Positions 20,370 through 29,276 of a DNA stretch of 64,000 nucleotides are shown piece after piece (the first letter of the stretch is position 1; each line of letters starts with the position of its first letter). The position numbers and the translations under genes are program-made. The notes under the pieces were generated by a model. That model saw nothing but the letters and a program-made list of their open reading frames with translations, did no database searches and was not told the DNA's origin. The DNA lies in the NCBI RefSeq assembly GCF_900111495.1, contig NZ_FOIU01000001.1, positions 682,001 through 746,000 on the forward strand, read 5' to 3'. The DNA comes from Chryseobacterium wanjuense. GTDB taxonomy: Bacteria; Bacteroidota; Bacteroidia; Flavobacteriales; Weeksellaceae.

Positions 20370-22253
20370 ATGAAAAAAATTACAATTTTTTGCTTTATGC
20401 TTGTTTCCTTATTAGTATATTCTCAGGTTGGGATAAATACAACTAATCCTGCAGCAAGTTTAGACATAACAGCCAAGAACCCTACAGGCAATACGTCTAA
20501 TATAGATGGTATTATAGTTCCAAGGGTTGACAGAGAGCGTGCTCAGTCTATGACAACACCTACAGTTTCTACATTAATATATGTAAATGATGCCTCTACT
20601 GGAACCGCAGCTGGAACCGCTATAGATATAAATACTGTAGGCTTCTATTATTTTGATGGAACGAAATGGACAGCAATCAACACAACAGCAACAAACAATG
20701 ATTGGAAAACTATAGGAAATGCAGGAACAAATCCTGCTAATAATTTTATTGGAACTACAGACAATCAAAACCTTATTTTTAAAAGGAATAATGCTGATGC
20801 TGGTTTTTTAGGTAATTTAAATACTGCATTTGGACTTAATTCTTTACCATTTACTTCTTCAGCAATACAAAACACAGCATTTGGTATTAATGCTTTAGGT
20901 AACAGTGCAGGACCTGCTTCATCAGCTTTTGGGCATCAGGCTCTTGCCGCTAATACTACAGGCGGTAATAACTCGGCTTTTGGCTGGCAGGCTCTCAATG
21001 CCAATACCACAGGTACAAGCAACACGGCTTTTGGTTCAAGAGCCCTTGCTAGTACTATTTCTGGAGGTTTTAATACGGCAGTAGGACACTTATCCATGCA
21101 AACTATTACTACTGGTGGTTTTAATACAGCATTGGGTTATGCCTCATTAAATAATTTAACTAGTGGAACCGCGAATGTGGGGATTGGGCACAATGCAGGA
21201 AATGAAGGTACAGGAGGTGTTTCATTAACATCTGGAGATGGAAATATAATAGTAGGAAGACAAGCTGGTTTACCCAATGGTAATAACCAAATGAATATTG
21301 GAAGCATAATCTTTGGAACCAATATTAATGGGACTTTAGCTAATCGTACAGGAAATATAGGAATAGGAACAGTAAATCCGCAAGGAACATTCCATGTTGA
21401 CGGAGCAAAGGATAATCCAATAACAGGTGCTCCAACGACTGTTCAACAAGAGAATGACGTTGTTGTTTCACCAACAGGAGATGTAGGTGTAGGAACTACA
21501 TCACCAACGACAACTCTTGAAGTAATTACTAGGAAAGTAAATTCTGGAAATGTGGGAATAAGATTTGCGGGGTATAATGCAACTCCAGCAATAAATCAAA
21601 ATGTTTTAATTGGATTTAATCCTAATACCGCAGCAGGGGGATATGCACATTGGGCGATAGGGTCACAATTTTTTACTGGCACTTCATTAGGTGAAGCAGA
21701 TTTTATCTTTAAATCTTCAAATGGAGGAGGTTATAGTGATAGAGTGATTATTAAAAATAATGGGAACGTAGGAATAGGAATTATTGCACCTACAGCTAAG
21801 CTTCATGTAAGTGGTACTACTATTCTTGAAGGGGCGACTTCTGTTACTGGAGCTGCCAATCTCTTTGGTACAACAAGCCCACTTCAAATGAATGGAATAT
21901 CTGGTAACTCAGGACAGGTTTTAGTTTCCAATGGTACAGGTACTCCTGCGTGGAAAAATGTGGTGCAATCAAGTTTTACTGCCGCATTTGACCTGTCATA
22001 TCCGATTGGTTACTATGAGCGAACAGCAAACTTCATATTGCCAGCCATTACAGGTCCTGCTGATTCAGGTAAACTATTCTACATAAAAAATGTTGGTTTA
22101 GCACCAATTGATGCAGCAGTCGCGGCAGGCAATTCAATCTTTGGTCCAAATAATGGTTCCGTTAGTATACCAGTTAATGGAACCGTCGGTTATGTCGCTT
22201 ATTATGTGAGTGCAGGTAGTCGAGGATGGATTGCAGTGAGTAAAACATGGTAA
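20370..22253 (+). CDS. Secreted fibre-like protein with TAFG-repeat region
   Basis: A 627-residue secreted protein. It has signal peptide (MKKITIFCFMLVSLLVYSQ), the leader block NPTGNTSNIDGIIVPRVDRE, and GFYYFDGTKWTAI. A run of short repeats follows, of the kind NTAFG.NAL.. / NSAFGWQALNANTTG / NTALGYASL, as in phage tail-fibre and Bacteroidota surface proteins. Next is a block paralogous to the 18961 protein (VLIGFNPNTAAGG ... ADFIFKSSNGGGYSD ... IIKNNGNVGIG). A C-terminal all-beta segment ends GWIAVSKTW. I infer an extended extracellular fibre. No catalytic signature is seen, and no obvious type IX sorting signal. It is the parent-like paralogue of the stub at 17518. Confidence 0.78.
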   Translation: MKKITIFCFMLVSLLVYSQVGINTTNPAASLDITAKNPTGNTSNIDGIIVPRVDRERAQSMTTPTVSTLIYVNDASTGTAAGTAIDINTVGFYYFDGTKWTAINTTATNNDWKTIGNAGTNPANNFIGTTDNQNLIFKRNNADAGFLGNLNTAFGLNSLPFTSSAIQNTAFGINALGNSAGPASSAFGHQALAANTTGGNNSAFGWQALNANTTGTSNTAFGSRALASTISGGFNTAVGHLSMQTITTGGFNTALGYASLNNLTSGTANVGIGHNAGNEGTGGVSLTSGDGNIIVGRQAGLPNGNNQMNIGSIIFGTNINGTLANRTGNIGIGTVNPQGTFHVDGAKDNPITGAPTTVQQENDVVVSPTGDVGVGTTSPTTTLEVITRKVNSGNVGIRFAGYNATPAINQNVLIGFNPNTAAGGYAHWAIGSQFFTGTSLGEADFIFKSSNGGGYSDRVIIKNNGNVGIGIIAPTAKLHVSGTTILEGATSVTGAANLFGTTSPLQMNGISGNSGQVLVSNGTGTPAWKNVVQSSFTAAFDLSYPIGYYERTANFILPAITGPADSGKLFYIKNVGLAPIDAAVAAGNSIFGPNNGSVSIPVNGTVGYVAYYVSAGSRGWIAVSKTW

Positions 22254-22645
22254 GGAATATGAGAATTCTTCTGTTTTAAGTAGTAAATAAATTATAGGCT
22301 TGCACTTTATTTCTTGAATGTTATAATTAATCTAATTTCTCTAACTGCTAGTATGACTTAAGAAAAGTAAATAATTCCACATACAAAAAAACGGAGTAAA
22401 AAAAATACATTTATGGGCAAATTTTTAATCAAAAAGCTGGAAGTAATATGATTTAAAGTATAACTTTATAGATCTTGCGCTTTAGTTTAAAATTATAAAT
22501 CACAGATATTTGAGAATAATAAATGATTTTTTTCATCACCTTATGTTAAGTGAGATTTTCCCTTTGTGAGAGGAACTTTTTATTTTCTCATCAACTTCAG
22601 AAATCTAAATAAAGGAAATATTAAATAATGTTTTTTGATTATTAA
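22254..22645. other. Intergenic stretch, nothing recognised
   Basis: AT-rich; no intact frame, no clear hairpin terminator. It separates the fibre gene from the dead recombinase. Confidence 0.4.
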
Positions 22646-24240
22646 ATGAGTTTCGAATCTTCAGTTATGTATATACCAAATAAAAAGATTGTCTTTAAAG
22701 GTTATTCCCAAAGAGATCAGGAAGAGAGATTACGGAGGTATTGTGAAAATTACCACATCATAATTGGTGAAATCATTTATGAAGATTACTCGGCCAAGGC
22801 CTTCAACAGACCTGAGTGGATAAAATTACTTGAAACACTAAAGAAAAGAAGTTCTAAGACAAATTTATTATTATTTACAAAATGGGATCGTTTTAGCCGA
22901 AATGCAGGTGATGCCTATCAAATGATAAATTTACTCAAAAAGTATAACGTTGAGCCACAAGCAATCGAACAACCTTTAGACCTTTCCATTCCTGAAAATA
23001 AAATGATGTAGGCTATCTATCTTGCAGCACCGGAAGTTGAAAACGACAGGCGTGCCTTAAATACTTATTACGGAATGCGTCGTGCTAAAAAAGAAGGTAG
23101 ATTAATGGGGAGAGCTCCTTACGGGTATGTCAATAAAATAACAGAGAATGGTAGAAAGTATGTCACTTAAAAAGAACCGGAGGCTTCCAACATGAAATGG
23201 GCATTCAACGAAATGGCAAAGGTATATTTTCAGCAAGTCAGATAATGGAAATGATGAACAAAAGTGGAGGTAAGCAAATAAAGATTAGCGCTTTCCTTGC
23301 CGGACTGAGGAATCCGGCATATTGCGGAAAAATATATATTGAACAGTACAATGAAGAGGAAGCTCATTTTGTTCCAAGTATTCATGAACCCTTGATCAGT
23401 GAAGAATTATTCGAAAAGGTTCAAAGTGTAATGGATGGAAATGTTAATCCTGCTAGACCTAATGCTAAGATATTATGTGATGAAAATCTTCCACTTCGTG
23501 GGTTTCTGGTTTGCCCTGAATGTCATCATTTGATAACAGGTAGTGCATCAACAGGGCGGACAGGACAGAAGTATTACTATTACCACTGTAAATCGTCTTG
23601 TGGATATCGTTATAAATCAGAAATTGTCAATAACAAATTTATTCAATTACTGGAAGCATTAGAGATGAGGGAATCCATTAAAAAATATTTAAGGAAAGTA
23701 TTGAAACAAAACTTTGAAAAGTTTATAAGTAATCCTCAACATGAAAGAAAAACAATACTATCAGAAATTGATTGCTTAAACAGCAGGTTGAAATCGGCAA
23801 GAACCAAATTGCTAGAAGATGTTATTGATAATGACGAATACCTAGAAATCAAGGCTGATTGCAAAGATCAGATTGATAAGTTAGAGAGCAAACTATCCAA
23901 AGTAAAAGATAAGAAAAAAATAGATTTTCCAAAACTACTAGACCAAGCATTATCGAACCTTGTAAACCTGTCTAAAGTCTATGCTGATGGGGATATTGAG
24001 GTAAAACGTAAAATAGTTGGTTCGATATTCCCCGAAAAATTAGAATTTTTTGAAAATCATTATCGAACCACCAAGGCTAATGTTCTATTGTCATATATCT
24101 ATCATATTAATAACGAGTTAGGAGTTAGAAAAAACCGGAAAGAAAGTGAATTATCACCTCTTTCCGGTCTTGTACCGGATAAAAAACAGCTTGAAAATCA
24201 ATTGAATAAATTATTGGACAACGAGGAATCTTCCCTATAG
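22646..24240 (+). pseudogene. Large serine recombinase (resolvase/invertase family), inactivated
   Basis: Three pieces make up one gene: 22646-23011, a middle part after a TAG and then a TAA at about 23168, and 23197-24240 in another frame (shift near 23220). In order they give the resolvase core (GYSQRDQEERLRRYC, LLLFTKWDRFSRNAGDAYQM, EQPLDLSIPENKMM, YLAAPEVENDRRA), the recombinase domain (APYGYVNK, LAGLRNPAYCGKIYIEQYNE), the zinc ribbon (CPECHHLITG ... YHCKSSCGYRYKSE) and a long coiled coil. The N-terminal strand with the catalytic Ser (normally in RVS) is missing, replaced by MYIPNKKIVFKGY. It probably marks an old integrative element. Confidence 0.85.
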
Positions 24241-24504
24241 TGTTCCCAATTAATGGCATAATTGGATAAAATCTAGTGATAAATTTGAGAAATAATATTA
24301 TTATCAATTATTAGAATTAATAATAAGTGAATTTAAAAGAGAAATAAATAACTAATTAAAGTAACGAAAATATTGAAAATTGTACACCCTATGTACATCT
24401 TTAAAATCATAATAGGCTGATTGTCAAAACAAATGAAGATTTTGTATCGGAAAGTAACCAGCGCAAAACAAACAATTGTAAAATATATAATAAACTTGTA
24501 TTAG
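24241..24504. other. Intergenic stretch after the recombinase
   Basis: No gene seen. An attachment site for the recombinase could lie here but no repeated or palindromic core was recognised. Confidence 0.35.
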
Positions 24505-24527
24505 TCCCTTTTTATAGGGATTTTTTT
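24505..24527 (+). terminator. Intrinsic terminator
   Basis: Arms TCCCT (24505-24509) and AGGGA (24516-24520) with a run of seven T. It insulates the fusion gene downstream. Confidence 0.75.
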
Positions 24528-24561
24528 ATGCTTCAAATATATGGTTATTTTGTTTTGTTAT

Positions 24562-24590
24562 TTGCTTATTTATGAATGTTTGTACCTTTG
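24562..24590 (+). promoter_or_regulatory. Promoter of the CrtC-prenyl synthase fusion gene
   Basis: TTG at 24562-24564 and TACCTTTG at 24583-24590, 18 bp apart: a full match to the Bacteroidota primary-sigma consensus TTG / TAnnTTTG. It lies about 80 bp before the ATG at 24671. Confidence 0.7.
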
Positions 24591-24670
24591 TTGTATCTCA
24601 ATCCCTATTTTCTTAATGAAAAAATTATCATAGATTGTGAGAACATAACCTAATATAAAAACTTCTAACT

Positions 24671-26899
24671 TTGAAAATGAAAAATTATTCTGTTGAAAAT
24701 AATTCCGAAAAGATAGGTATTAATTTACTTATTGATGATTTACCGCATAAGACATCTAATTTAGAATGGTGGTATTTTCATGCACATGTTGAAGATGATG
24801 CAGGAAAAGCTTTTGCGTTCTTTTGCTCATTTTTTAGAATTGCTAGAGATTTTAATGTATTTCCTTTTGAGTTTACTCATTCGCTTACCTGGTCTTTGGT
24901 TGATATAGAAGATCAAAAATACCATAGCGAGACCAGCCATGACGATAAGATTTTGTCTAAAATTAGTGATGATTTGAAAGAAAAGAAAGAGTTGAAACCA
25001 ATTGATAATGCCTTTAAAGAAATTATTGACAAAGGAAATTTTCCGGCTCCAGATTTTCTTATGAAAAAAAGTGTTGTTACTTCTAACAATGAATTAAAAT
25101 TAAATTATGATCTTGGTCATCTTGAAAAAGATGAGAAAGGGAACTACCTTGTTAAAATTGGTAATCAGATAGGAAATAGTAATGTTAATTTTTGCTTTAC
25201 TCCTCTTAAAAATCCTGTTCATCATGGTGAAAACGGACTTGTGAAATCATCAATGAATGCAGCCAACAATATGCATTATTACTTTATTCCGGAAAATGCT
25301 GTAGAAGGTAATATTACTCTTAATAATAAAACTTTTCGGGTAAAAGGGTCTGGATGGTATGATCATGAATTTAGCGAATCGTACAACCCTGCTCAAAAAG
25401 TGGAGCAAAATACTTCAAAACATTGGATGTGGTTTGCAATACAATTTGATAATCATTGTCAGCTTACTTTTTATTCCCTGACTGACAAAAATACAACGCA
25501 ATCAGATAGACTTATTGTTTGGATTGATGAAAAAGGAGAGTCTTTTACGCTTAAAGATGATAACATTGTTATTGAAATAATTGACTATTATATAAGTAAA
25601 AAGACCTGCGCAAAATATCCTGTGGAATGGCAAGTGAAAATTCCAGCGTGGAATCTTGATTTTAATGTAAAGGCAGAACTTTCAGATCAGGAAGTTATGA
25701 CATTCTTATATGCTCCGGGATTTTGGGAAGGACGGGCAAAGGTTTCTGGTACATTAGAAAATGAAAAAATTACAGGAAATGCTTTCGTAGAAATCACAAC
25801 AGATAAAGGATGGAATAATATGAATGATCTTTTAGATCAGGCAGCAGAAGAGGTTTTGGATATTATCCATGAGGTAGTACCATATCCCCATGAAAAAGAA
25901 AAGATTAAGAAATTGATGAAAGATTATTATTCATCATACTTGAATGCTGTACCGTCCGAGATACTTCATGAGGCCTTAATAAAACCTTTACTTGAAATGC
26001 TTGACAGAAAAGGAAAAGGATGGCGTTCTCATTTATTACGTTTGTTAGTAGGTCTTTGTGAAGGTAATATTTCTCAATACGATCCTTTTGTTGCACTTGT
26101 TCAATTAATCCATTGTAGTTCACTTATTATTGATGATGTTCAGGATCAATCGCCATTGCGAAGAGGTGATGCAAGCTGCCACGTCATTTATGGAATTCCT
26201 GCAGCAATAAATTCCGGCACTTTCGGATATTTTGTGGGCGAAATATTGATTCGCAATATGACACATTTATCTGATTCTAAAATGAAAAAAGTATACGAAG
26301 CATATTTTGATACAATGAGACTTTGTCATGCCGGGCAGGCTTTAGATATCAGAACTTTTACAGATTTACTTCCTCAGGCTTTTGAAACGGGTGATACCTA
26401 TTCAATATCTGAAAGCATGAGAGAAATCCATATACTTAAGACAGGTGTTCCTATTAAAATGATGGCAAATATCATAACTATATTAGAAGATCTGAGCCTA
26501 GAAAAGCATAAAGCAATTTGTCATTATGGTGAAGCTTTTGGGCTTGCTTATCAAATAATTGATGATGTGAGAGATCTGAACGGTAGTTTTAAGGGAAGTA
26601 AGGTAGAATTGGAAGATATCCGCGAAGGGAAAGTGACATTACCTTTGATAAAAGCTATTGAGCTTTCCCAACCGGAAATTCGTCTGAAAATGAAAAACCT
26701 CTGGAGTAAACCCAATAAATCTTCACAGGATATTCATGATATTGCAGATTGGATTATTAGTTCAGGTGCACTTACGCAATGTCGAAAAGATGCTATTAAT
26801 CTTATCGACGAAAAGTGGATCGAGATTGATAAAATATTTCCTGATTCCCACTATAAACTTATGATTCGGGCAATGAGCAACTATTTTTTAAATTTATAA
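24671..26899 (+). CDS. Fusion of a CrtC/AttH lipocalin-like domain with a polyprenyl diphosphate synthase domain
   Basis: A 742-residue soluble protein with no signal peptide. Residues 1-380 match the CrtC/AttH (hydroxyneurosporene-hydratase-like) double-lipocalin fold: LEWWYFHAHV (31-40), GSGWYDHEFS (227-236), HWMWFAIQFD (251-260) and FWEGRAKVSG (351-360). Residues 395-742 are an all-helical trans-prenyltransferase: GKGWR (448-452), first Asp-rich motif DDVQD (488-492) with RRG (497-499), GQALD (555-559), KTG (590-592), second motif DDVRD (631-635). All metal- and diphosphate-binding residues appear present. It could make a prenyl diphosphate and pass it to the CrtC-like domain for hydration, isomerisation or cyclisation. 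That coupling is inference. It has its own promoter and no pathway neighbours. Confidence 0.88.
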   Translation: MKMKNYSVENNSEKIGINLLIDDLPHKTSNLEWWYFHAHVEDDAGKAFAFFCSFFRIARDFNVFPFEFTHSLTWSLVDIEDQKYHSETSHDDKILSKISDDLKEKKELKPIDNAFKEIIDKGNFPAPDFLMKKSVVTSNNELKLNYDLGHLEKDEKGNYLVKIGNQIGNSNVNFCFTPLKNPVHHGENGLVKSSMNAANNMHYYFIPENAVEGNITLNNKTFRVKGSGWYDHEFSESYNPAQKVEQNTSKHWMWFAIQFDNHCQLTFYSLTDKNTTQSDRLIVWIDEKGESFTLKDDNIVIEIIDYYISKKTCAKYPVEWQVKIPAWNLDFNVKAELSDQEVMTFLYAPGFWEGRAKVSGTLENEKITGNAFVEITTDKGWNNMNDLLDQAAEEVLDIIHEVVPYPHEKEKIKKLMKDYYSSYLNAVPSEILHEALIKPLLEMLDRKGKGWRSHLLRLLVGLCEGNISQYDPFVALVQLIHCSSLIIDDVQDQSPLRRGDASCHVIYGIPAAINSGTFGYFVGEILIRNMTHLSDSKMKKVYEAYFDTMRLCHAGQALDIRTFTDLLPQAFETGDTYSISESMREIHILKTGVPIKMMANIITILEDLSLEKHKAICHYGEAFGLAYQIIDDVRDLNGSFKGSKVELEDIREGKVTLPLIKAIELSQPEIRLKMKNLWSKPNKSSQDIHDIADWIISSGALTQCRKDAINLIDEKWIEIDKIFPDSHYKLMIRAMSNYFLNL

Positions 26900-26910
26900 T
26901 AATCTTAAAT

Positions 26911-27078
26911 GGTAGTGTTTCACTAACTGGCTAAGTTAATTTTAAACCTACATAGTTTACGATGAACAAAGGAGAATTATTAAACAATAAGGCTTTCTAT
27001 AAATCCTTTTAAAAATGAAGAAGATTTGACATCTTTCTTCAAAGAGATGCACAAACTGTTGTAGAACATATTTACGCA
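26911..27078 (+). mobile_element. Left-end remnant of a second IS256-type element
   Basis: GGTAGTGTTTCACTAACTG, then CTAAGTTAATTTTAAACCTA and the first codons of the transposase (ATGAACAAAGGAGAATTATT, coding LLNNKAFYKSF) match the start of the element at 13845-13620. The internal inverted-repeat half and about 50 bp are deleted, and stops follow. About 170 bp of the roughly 1.35 kb element remain. Confidence 0.8.
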
Positions 27079-27140
27079 AAGGTTGTTGAGTTGGTAGACA
27101 AGAATATTATAATTGAAACTTATGAGGGATTGTTTATTAA

Positions 27141-27503
27141 TTAGACCATTTTAATGGAAATTTGTATGTTTTAATTGATGGAGCTACTTTTTCTTCTGCT
27201 GCACTTTTTACTGCTGCACTTAAATCACAGCGTAAAGCGACAAAATTTATTGGCAGAGAAACTGCAGGTGGTGAGGAAGGCTGTAACGGAATGGTTATCC
27301 AGGAGTTTACGTTGCCAAATACAAAGGTTTTAATTGATTTTCCTTGGATGTGCGTCGAATCAGTTGCTCATAATCCAACACATGGCAGGGGCATATTGCC
27401 GGATTACGAGGTGAATTATGATCCCTTAGATGTAGTAATTAATAAAGATCGTGATCTTGAAAAGGTTATGGAACTGATCCGGGAGGACGGAAAAAACGAG
27501 TAA
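27141..27503 (+). pseudogene. C-terminal fragment of an S41-family peptidase
   Basis: The frame open from 27141 reads NLYVLIDGATFSSAALFTAA, LKSQRKATKFIGRETAGGEE, GCNG and then GRGILPDYEVNYDP. This is the tail-specific protease (TSPc) domain of C-terminal processing peptidases, with the nucleophile Ser in TFSSAAL and the conserved GRETAGG loop. Everything upstream is missing: the frame begins just after the IS256-type remnant. A short frame at 27079-27147 (YAKVVELVDKNIIIETYEG) could be a relic of the N-terminal part. Starts at TTG 27162 or later are possible but would give only a partial domain, so I treat it as a pseudogene. Confidence 0.75.
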
Positions 27504-27528
27504 CTATTTAAATTACTCGTTTGTATTA
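27495..27528 (+). terminator. Intrinsic terminator after the S41 fragment
   Basis: Arms AACGAGTAA (27495-27503) and TTACTCGTT (27513-27521) with TTGTATT following. The 5' arm overlaps the stop codon. Confidence 0.7.
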
Positions 27529-27603
27529 TTTAAGAATAAGCCCTTTGTAGAATCTTATTTTTTATTTAAAATAATGTCATTTGCGACAAAAAAGCCTTAT
27601 TTA

Positions 27604-28425
27604 CTATTCTTCAATAAACTTCAAAAGATCTTTATTGATTGTTGCTGCTTCTGTAGTCGGCATTCCGTGAGGGAAACCTGGGTAAGTCTTTATTGTTCCG
27701 TTTTTTAATAATTTAATTGATTTTAAAGCGGCATTTTGGTAAGGAACGATTTGGTCGTCTTCACCGTGAAGCACTAAAACCGGAATATCAACGGCTTGCA
27801 AATCTTCTCTGAAATCAGTTTCAGAAAACGCTTTGATTCCGTCATAATGGGCAACGATTCCTCCCATCATTCCTTGTCTCCACCAATTTCTCTGGATGCC
27901 TTCCTTCACATCAGCACCTTCTCTGTTGTATCCATAGAAAGGAATGGTCAAATCGATGTAAAACTGCTGTCTGTTGTTCAAAGTCTGATTTCTGATGTTA
28001 TCGAAAACTTCCATCGGAACACCGTCAGGATTGCTTTCGCTTGCTACCATAATCGGTGGAACAGCACTGATTAAAACAGCTTTTTTCGCTCTTCCTTTTG
28101 CATATTTATTTACATATCGGATCACTTCACCGCCACCTGTAGAGTGTCCGATGTGAACAACGTCTTTCAGGTCTAAGAATTCTACCAATTCAGCTGCATC
28201 AGCTGCGTACTGCTCAATCGTGTGACCGTAGATGTTCTGGCTAGATCTGCCGTGACCTCTTCTGTCGTGCGTTACCACTCTGTAACCTCTTTGTAAGAAG
28301 AAAATAACCTGTGCGTCCCAGTCATCTGATGACAATGGCCATCCGTGGTGAAACATCAATGTTGGTCCTTCTCCTTGATCTTTGTAAAAAATTTCTGTTC
28401 CGTCTTTTAATGTTAGTGTGCTCAT
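27604..28425 (-). CDS. Alpha/beta hydrolase, non-heme chloroperoxidase-like
   Basis: A 273-residue cytoplasmic alpha/beta hydrolase. The nucleophile elbow GHSTGG (Ser95), acid in GEDDQIVP (Asp223 or Asp224) and His253 in GFPHGM form the triad. The oxyanion region HHGWPLSSDDW and DRRGHGRSS are signatures of the cofactor-free haloperoxidase / aryl-esterase group. These enzymes hydrolyse esters, and with organic acids and peroxide can form peracids. The gene is monocistronic, with a TACATTTG -7 box upstream. It sits next to the stress island (bicupin, Dps, LytTR system), but the repeat operator found at those genes is not convincingly present here. Confidence 0.92.
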   Translation of the reverse strand: MSTLTLKDGTEIFYKDQGEGPTLMFHHGWPLSSDDWDAQVIFFLQRGYRVVTHDRRGHGRSSQNIYGHTIEQYAADAAELVEFLDLKDVVHIGHSTGGGEVIRYVNKYAKGRAKKAVLISAVPPIMVASESNPDGVPMEVFDNIRNQTLNNRQQFYIDLTIPFYGYNREGADVKEGIQRNWWRQGMMGGIVAHYDGIKAFSETDFREDLQAVDIPVLVLHGEDDQIVPYQNAALKSIKLLKNGTIKTYPGFPHGMPTTEAATINKDLLKFIEE

Positions 28426-28487
28426 TTTTTTAATTTTTTAATGTTGTGATTAATTTATTTTAATATTTTGTTGTCTTAATTCTTTAG

Positions 28488-28495
28488 CAAATGTA
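28488..28495 (-). promoter_or_regulatory. Bacteroidota -7 element of the hydrolase gene
   Basis: Minus strand TACATTTG, exact TAnnTTTG, about 62 bp before the start codon. No clear TTG -33 box. Confidence 0.5.
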
Positions 28496-28574
28496 GGATG
28501 GCTCGATTCATTTCTCGTTAATCTAGTTTAATATCGTACATTTTTAAAAAGAAATTATCTGATTGTCGTAACAA

Positions 28575-29276
28575 TTAGTTTTTAGAGTTAATTCTTGAAA
28601 TCAATAATCCGCAAATCATTAGCAATAATGCAGGAAGAATAAAAGTCCAGTTTCTTAAAAAGTCGAGTAGGAAAGGAGCAATAAACGCACCGGATAAAAA
28701 GCCAACCCATAAGAATAAAAGATGAATGGCGTTGGATTTATATTCTACTTTTGCCACTTTATCATCCGTCATGCTCAGCATTGCAACGTTTCTTGCCAGG
28801 CTGTTCAAGGTTCCTGTCACAAAATCTGTATTTACCTTTTGATTTCCTACAGAAGTCACAATGGTGTTCATCAATCCCATAGAAAACCCTATAATCCCAA
28901 TGGATGATAAAATATTGAGAGTATAAAAATAATCAGCTATCGTATAGAAAATCAGAATTCCTGAAACGATGTAAAATATTAATGCTTTATTCTTTATCCT
29001 CTTCCATAATGACAGACAGGTTCCCGTGTAAATTCCTGATAAAAAGCAGGCAATGACCGTAACAGACGTTATGATGACCCCTGGCTTATCAGTAGAAAGT
29101 GCAGCTCCTAATTGCGTGGTATTTCCACTCATAAAAGAAACGTATGTTTTCCATTTTATCAATCCTGTTGCATCGATGTATCCTGCGATTAAGGCTAAAA
29201 ATAGGGCTAATTTCTCCTGTATCCCAATCGATTCAGATGATGCGGAAACGCTTTTCGTATCGTCGGAATTATCCAT
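28575..29276 (-). CDS. DUF1275 (YoaK-like) membrane protein
   Basis: A 233-residue integral membrane protein with about six hydrophobic segments (LALFLALIAGYIDATGLIKW, VTVIACFLSGIYTGTCLSLW, IGIIGFSMGLMNTIVTS, LPALLLMICGLLISRI). The motifs 'AGYIDATG', 'FMSGNTTQLG' and 'VNTDFVTGTLNSL' are those of DUF1275. The family's biochemical role is not established. It starts 25 bp after the bicupin gene on the same strand, so it should be part of that operon and share its 21-bp repeat operator. Confidence 0.9.
   Translation of the reverse strand: MDNSDDTKSVSASSESIGIQEKLALFLALIAGYIDATGLIKWKTYVSFMSGNTTQLGAALSTDKPGVIITSVTVIACFLSGIYTGTCLSLWKRIKNKALIFYIVSGILIFYTIADYFYTLNILSSIGIIGFSMGLMNTIVTSVGNQKVNTDFVTGTLNSLARNVAMLSMTDDKVAKVEYKSNAIHLLFLWVGFLSGAFIAPFLLDFLRNWTFILPALLLMICGLLISRINSKN

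Follow-up and report, generated by a model that had tools for sequence, protein, structure and literature searches.

An AttH-like lipocalin domain fused to a trans-prenyl diphosphate synthase in Chryseobacterium wanjuense: a laterally acquired candidate for a bifunctional terpenoid enzyme

Introduction

Kievitone hydratase of Nectria haematococca (structures 7a0q and 7a0t), which hydrates a prenyl double bond, is a stand-alone fungal enzyme that uses a prenylated isoflavonoid and has no synthase domain. AttH and related lipocalin-like proteins (2ich; Rhizobium, Nitrospina) are also free-standing and without a synthase domain, and the geranylgeranyl diphosphate (GGPP) synthases of yeast (2dh4) and Pyrococcus (1wy0) carry no lipocalin domain. 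Here we describe a gene of Chryseobacterium wanjuense which differs from all of these, since one open frame joins a lipocalin-like half to a trans-prenyl diphosphate synthase. The gene lies on the + strand at 24671-26899 of a stretch of 64,000 nucleotides (contig NZ_FOIU01000001.1, positions 682,001 to 746,000), called the window below, to which all coordinates refer. Judged from its sequence, it may encode a laterally acquired bifunctional terpenoid enzyme which first makes a prenyl chain and then hydrates the far double bond of this chain by means of D229, a reading to which we give slightly less than an even chance.

The carotenoid hydratase CrtC was examined in RgCrtC, where, according to the available part of PMC4717167, H239, W241, Y266 and D268 are essential and their alanine mutants are dead. 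The accessible portion of another paper (PMC12402844) names D268 and three tryptophans as the protonation and cation-pi residues and reports that RgCrtC hydrates the terminal prenyl unit of more than 20 terpenes of C12-C20. As the mass-spectrometric mark of such hydration it gives a fragment at m/z 59 together with a weaker one at m/z 69. As far as the excerpts consulted go, fungal chimeric terpene synthases and HAD-fused drimenol synthases resemble the fusion protein in combining terpene building or processing with a carbocation step in a single chain. In these systems, the carbocation step falls to class I cyclases or to HAD-fused terpene cyclases, whereas in the fusion protein it would fall to a lipocalin. 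In fusicoccadiene synthase, the prenyltransferase is the C-terminal part, as it is here. The titles and opening abstract lines of the open-licence PMC papers listed by our searches gave no published function or account of the domain pair.

Results

The frame is intact and contains all the motifs quoted in the original prediction, a note made by a model from the sequence (EWWYFHAHV, GWYDHEFS and FWEGRAKVSG, both Asp-rich motifs, GKGWR, and RRG at amino acids (aa) 495-497). Its features, all on the + strand, are as follows.

24677..26899, +, fusion gene, 740 aa from ATG; a TTG at 24671 would give 742 aa
24764..25378, +, first lipocalin domain, PF07143 'CrtC N-terminal', aa 30-234 (Pfam E 1.6e-20)
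25361..25363, +, codon of D229 (putative catalytic acid); CrtC, AttH and kievitone hydratase have Asp at the matching place
25412..25798, +, second lipocalin domain, PF17186, aa 246-374 (Pfam E 3e-24), holding W250 and W252
25424..25432, +, W250-x-W252, aligned with the CrtC WxW (taken as W283/W285 of RgCrtC by motif)
25805..25948, +, interdomain stretch, aa 377-424, mostly helical (AlphaFold2; fold-match boundary near 377)
25973..26746, +, trans-prenyl diphosphate synthase domain, PF00348, aa 433-690 (Pfam E 7e-45)
26012..26026, +, GKGWR motif, aa 446-450, from sequence and conservation
26132..26146, +, first Asp-rich motif DDVQD, aa 486-490; D486, D487 and D490 in 225 of 225 sequences
26561..26575, +, second Asp-rich motif DDVRD, aa 629-633; last position Asn in 209 of 225 relatives

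The ATG at 24677 is also the start codon in the second copy known from the genus, and the TTG reading adds only two residues. EWWY (W31, W32) and WYDHEF (W227, D229) both lie in the first lipocalin domain. The PF00348 match scored 153.6 bits against a cut-off of 27, and the synthase fold match spans aa 377-740. The active-site set of trans-isoprenyl diphosphate synthases is complete (DDVQD, DDVRD, GKGWR, the RR pair, K588 and Q626); GKGWR presumably has a role in the binding of isopentenyl diphosphate (IPP). The synthase domain is very probably active on these sequence grounds. Small residues ahead of the first Asp-rich motif go with chains of C20 or longer and the motif is here entered through HCSSLIIDD, so a chain of C20 or more is predicted. 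The original prediction had proposed folding the whole chain as a check, and the AlphaFold2 model indeed consists of two well-folded halves (pLDDT 87). Scans with Pfam and NCBIfam found no terpene cyclase family in the protein, which does not qualify as a class I cyclase.

The lipocalin half had been taken for a CrtC-type domain, and this assignment could not be maintained. Compared by hhalign with seven CrtC sequences (crtC of the Roseobacter litoralis photosynthesis cluster and six homologues), it gave a probability of 3% (E 0.014), and identity with carotenoid CrtC was therefore rejected; the alignment with three AttH-type proteins reached a probability of 100 (E 3.3e-44). The R. litoralis CrtC (L113:10801-11673) has no Pfam match at 1e-3, and so none to PF07143, whereas two AttH-type proteins match this family at 1e-48 and 7e-59. 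Both the two-domain profile PF07143-PF17186 and the fold of the AttH type were matched by the N-terminal half, whose fold matches include kievitone hydratase (7a0q/7a0t) and AttH (2ich). By sequence comparison, 'CrtC' is thus only a Pfam label and the fused domain is AttH-like; the name may mislead the annotation of AttH-like proteins in general. Kievitone hydratase, too, is detected from its sequence by the lipocalin profile (E 5.5e-15), and the WYD and WxW motifs coincide in the alignment. Judged by fold and by sequence alignment, no closer relative with a known activity was found. The register of the weak CrtC alignment places the CrtC Asp on D229 and the CrtC WxW on W250/W252, a likeness shared by the Rubrivivax and Roseobacter enzymes.

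The original prediction spoke of an unusual terpene synthase; the fusion as such, however, is one member of a large family. A single protein search, in which the 8000 candidates sharing most words were scored, yielded 454 homologues, and the three Pfam domains are present in all 120 that were listed. The closest among those listed (P0002-P0004) are 55-57% identical and the remaining ones 32-36%; as the homologue sets were collected with fused queries, fusions are over-represented in them. A search with only the lipocalin half found three proteins, of which two are free-standing and 23% identical. Species genomes, when scanned, yielded at least 80 loci (80 listed of 220 confirmed stretches), and those listed come from Flavobacterium, Spirosoma, Telluribacter, Cyanosarcina, Myxococcales, Acidobacteriota, Thermoplasmata and other records. 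Many are from metagenome-assembled records, so that the archaeal assignments may reflect errors of binning. Fungal members (Gymnopilus, Paramarasmius, Dendrothele) and members from Streptomyces and Kitasatospora were found with the C-terminal part of a Tolypothrix protein described below. The gene is nevertheless rare: it was present in 6 of the 395 phylum genomes sampled and in 2 of 59 relatives, with its own genome counted in both. Where the source gives a name, this is 'polyprenyl synthetase', 'geranylgeranyl pyrophosphate synthase/predicted secreted hydrolase' or similar.

Conservation was assessed in 225 distinct sequences (230 less five identical ones, P0001 being replaced by the window protein). 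In the synthase half, R450, H479, D486, D487, D490, R495 and R496 are the same in every sequence, and K588, Q626, D629 and D630 are kept in 223 sequences, the other two having gaps. In the lipocalin half, position 229 is Asp in 216 sequences and Glu in six, and the tryptophans are kept in 222 (W32), 222 (W227), 223 (W250) and 218 (W252). The two halves were compared in 221 sequences, P0003, P0004, P0144 and a Nitrosomonas protein being dropped for coverage. Their distance matrices correlated (Mantel r 0.92; none of 999 permutations was as high), and the N- and C-trees, with 218 and 216 splits, have 119 splits in common; of the 125 N-tree splits with support above 0.9, 93 are also found in the C-tree. 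This congruence implies that the fusion is old and was passed on as a unit in the sampled family. The Nitrosomonas protein, encoded on a conjugative plasmid of N. stercoris (L092:5416-7365; 649 aa), has an N-terminal half without a Pfam lipocalin match and is possibly a degenerate fusion. P0141, P0142 and P0143 have an additional PX (phosphoinositide-binding) domain, placed at the N-terminus in P0141; it points to a eukaryotic source.

Lateral transfer, as originally predicted, was borne out by a comparison within the genus. The gene is present in 2 of 173 same-genus genomes (own included), at different places. The second copy (genome G549) shares a single segment with the window over the 19.5 kb fetched, at 95.9% nucleotide identity, and its insertion site corresponds to a position about 170 kb away on the map of the window genome. 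The core genes beside either copy are only 76-83% identical between the two genomes. This difference in identity, together with the different sites, makes the lateral transfer of a unit little bigger than the gene well supported. The gene copies differ by 50 synonymous and 38 nonsynonymous changes; the ratio of nonsynonymous to synonymous rates (dN/dS) is 0.175 overall, 0.195 in the lipocalin half and 0.171 in the synthase half, so that both halves are under similar purifying selection. The following features of the surroundings are all on the + strand.

24654..26914, +, segment common to G549: the gene with flanks of 23 bp (upstream) and 15 bp (downstream)
22646..24240, +, serine recombinase upstream of the fusion gene, split between two frames (Resolvase; Recombinase with zinc ribbon), from the family scan
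27162..27503, +, S41 peptidase gene fragment downstream of the fusion gene, from the family scan
24561..24590, +, promoter match TTTG-N18-TANNTTTG to the Bacteroidota consensus

The mobile debris noted at the outset is thus real. A gap separates the two recombinase frames, and the gene looks inactivated. Synteny with four relatives ends sharply at 27611 in each of them, and no repeats that could be taken as transposon ends were found in 21900-28700. The consensus promoter claimed for the gene does exist as a match, but the number of such matches in the window (8 against 5.65 expected) is at chance level, and the match lies outside the segment common to G549. The only PSY/squalene-synthase-type gene of the genome is about 1.1 Mb off on the same contig, which places the fusion gene outside any carotenoid cluster.

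The gene was also said to have no pathway partners. This holds here and for many relatives, but some relatives carry tailoring enzymes fused to the domain pair or clustered with it. A plasmid protein of Tolypothrix PCC 7601 (L089:7604-12133; 1509 aa), annotated as polyprenyl synthetase and nothing more, combines a sulfotransferase, a glycosyltransferase, two lipocalin domains and a prenyl synthase. Among the 33 proteins found with its C-terminal part, Pfam detected Sulfotransfer_3 in 13, a glycosyltransferase in 14 and both in eight. P0121-P0140 group as one clade in the N-tree as well as in the C-tree, with support 1.0 each time; 12 of these 20 proteins have the sulfotransferase, 13 the glycosyltransferase and seven both, while P0138 and P0139 have neither. 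P0144, labelled as a marine-eukaryote transcript, is outside the tree set.

Gene neighbourhoods were analysed at 76 of 88 loci where a simple open reading frame (ORF) caller found the fusion; it missed 10 further loci, and L002 and L003 are unfused synthases. Tailoring genes were sought as relatives of nine chosen query sequences, so that others could be missed. In Spirosoma and Telluribacter (L005, L006, L009, L073), the fusion is followed by an LMF1-like gene, an FkbM methyltransferase and two cytochrome P450 genes, and a GT28-type glycosyltransferase gene adjoins the fusion or lies a few genes farther on. We regard this as a candidate terpenoid cluster. The presence in it (L005:8743-18130) of LMF1, from the lipase maturation factor family, was unexpected. 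FkbM and UGT genes are near the Cyanosarcina fusion (L007), and a UGT-type gene begins 35 bp past that of Membranihabitans (L081). At seven of the 76 loci, a glycosyltransferase gene lies on the same strand no more than about 3.3 kb away, a raw count that includes a match below the Pfam cut-off (L061). An operon conserved across the relatives was considered and rejected, since the best common neighbour cluster occurs at only eight of the 76 loci and does not look terpenoid. On the Streptomyces plasmids L090 and L091, a divergent pair of ATP-binding cassette (ABC) permease and ATPase genes adjoins a prenyl synthase, which is fused in S. canus and unfused in NBC_01431. At NBC_01431, the one locus in question, the single hypothetical protein tested beside the unfused synthase has no Pfam match and was discarded as a separate lipocalin.

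Discussion

We have confirmed that the synthase and the lipocalin-like domain form one protein and that this pair, sought in other genomes as the original prediction had proposed, recurs widely. In the mechanism that we favour, the C-terminal domain very probably builds an all-trans prenyl diphosphate, presumably of C20 or more, from IPP and an allylic diphosphate. The chain would then move into the cavity of the lipocalin domain of the AttH/kievitone hydratase type, where D229, among W32, W227, W250 and W252, would protonate the terminal (omega) isopropylidene double bond. Water would quench the tertiary cation to give an omega-hydroxy prenyl diphosphate or prenol, for example 15-hydroxy-14,15-dihydro-geranylgeranyl diphosphate. 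In some relatives, fused or clustered enzymes may glycosylate, sulfate or methylate the new hydroxyl. In the window genome, where the gene is alone, the product would be the unadorned alcohol or an alcohol tailored by unlinked enzymes. Hydration or cyclisation by the lipocalin half is chemically plausible by analogy, because kievitone hydratase hydrates a prenyl double bond. Whether the domain hydrates the omega double bond of a C20-type chain we consider, from sequence comparison, about evenly balanced. The sulfotransferases, glycosyltransferases, P450s and methyltransferases of some relatives suggest a terpenoid pathway. A precedent for hydrating first and glycosylating afterwards is given by CruF, whose hydration reaction opens the route to the glycosylated carotenoid myxoxanthophyll (PMC6013536, in the part available).

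Several observations weigh against this proposal. Asp is missing at position 229 in nine of the 225 sequences (P0137, P0140, P0144 and six Streptomyces sequences with Glu), and five of the Streptomyces Glu229 sequences have Arg in place of W31, four of them also in place of W252. Of the essential RgCrtC residues only D268 is kept, H239, W241 and Y266 being aligned with N198, H200 and W227. The same Asp/Trp set, WxW included, is found in AttH proteins, and therefore allows hydratase chemistry rather than proving it. Among 75 loci (the 76 without L001), 40 have no directly adjacent same-strand ORF of at least 120 aa within 200 bp, eight of these 40 lying at the edge of the stretch fetched. Eight of the ten same-strand neighbours scanned belong to no terpenoid-tailoring family, four of them to no family at all; the unrelated ones include penicillin amidase, Fe-alcohol dehydrogenase, subtilase and DUF4215. 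The original prediction had named separate adjacent genes with unrelated roles as a finding against it. A loose instance is R. litoralis, where crtC lies about 1.6 kb from a gene annotated as polyprenyl synthetase, but both are in one carotenoid cluster, which makes their roles related, and this CrtC belongs to a different branch than the fused lipocalin domain.

Instead of a hydratase, the lipocalin half could be a cyclase which, like class II cyclases, protonates a terminal or internal double bond while another double bond captures the cation, giving a cyclic prenyl diphosphate. An acid Asp among aromatic residues would suit this, and the CrtC design is compared with terpenoid cyclases in the available text of PMC4717167; the CrtC-domain proteins PenF and AsqC catalyse epoxide rearrangements according to the part of PMC6013536 at hand, fusions of prenyl synthases with cyclases are well known in fungi from the excerpts consulted, and the P450s of the Spirosoma/Telluribacter cluster would fit a cyclic scaffold too. 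However, both prenyl-acting members that were found described, CrtC and kievitone hydratase, hydrate, and the linked glycosyltransferase and sulfotransferase domains require a hydroxyl, although a water-quenched ring would also provide one. We therefore regard cyclisation as unlikely and favour a tertiary alcohol over a ring as the product.

We consider it just as improbable that the lipocalin half is a non-catalytic carrier passing the hydrophobic chain to the membrane, an exporter or a partner enzyme, by analogy with AttH, which may serve its ABC exporter. The nearest free-standing relatives are indeed of the AttH type, the one examined in Rhizobium sitting behind ABC ATPase and permease genes; ABC genes are also near the Tolypothrix and S. 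canus fusions, with a similar pair at the unfused Streptomyces synthase, and the fusion protein has a weak match, under the Pfam cut-off, to Svf1, a protein with a lipid-handling role. Yet the acid and the four tryptophans are strongly conserved, and the window gene differs from the Rhizobium gene in its neighbours, among which no ABC transporter was found in ten proteins scanned. Least probable of all, in our view, is a plain prenyl diphosphate synthase with the lipocalin half as a structural or regulatory relic: the Nitrosomonas plasmid relative and the losses of Asp229 would agree with it, but the similar purifying selection on the two halves in the genus and their congruent histories in the 221 sequences speak against it.

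If the lipocalin half does act on the chain as in the favoured hydration mechanism, the family would be a large one of bifunctional terpenoid enzymes, including natural cofactor-free terpene hydratases with a built-in substrate supply, and a testable activity would be available for AttH-like lipocalins. More tentatively, these proteins may constitute an uncharacterised class of terpenoid 'assembly-line' proteins of bacteria and fungi, possibly also of algae and archaea, in which the synthase builds the chain, the lipocalin hydrates its far end and, in the longest members, a fused glycosyltransferase and sulfotransferase decorate the new alcohol. On this tentative reading, a single polypeptide would turn out polyprenoids that are omega-glycosylated and sulfated. 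In the window, the pair has moved between species as a unit little bigger than the gene. The versions fused to glycosyltransferases and sulfotransferases predict a concrete and checkable product class.
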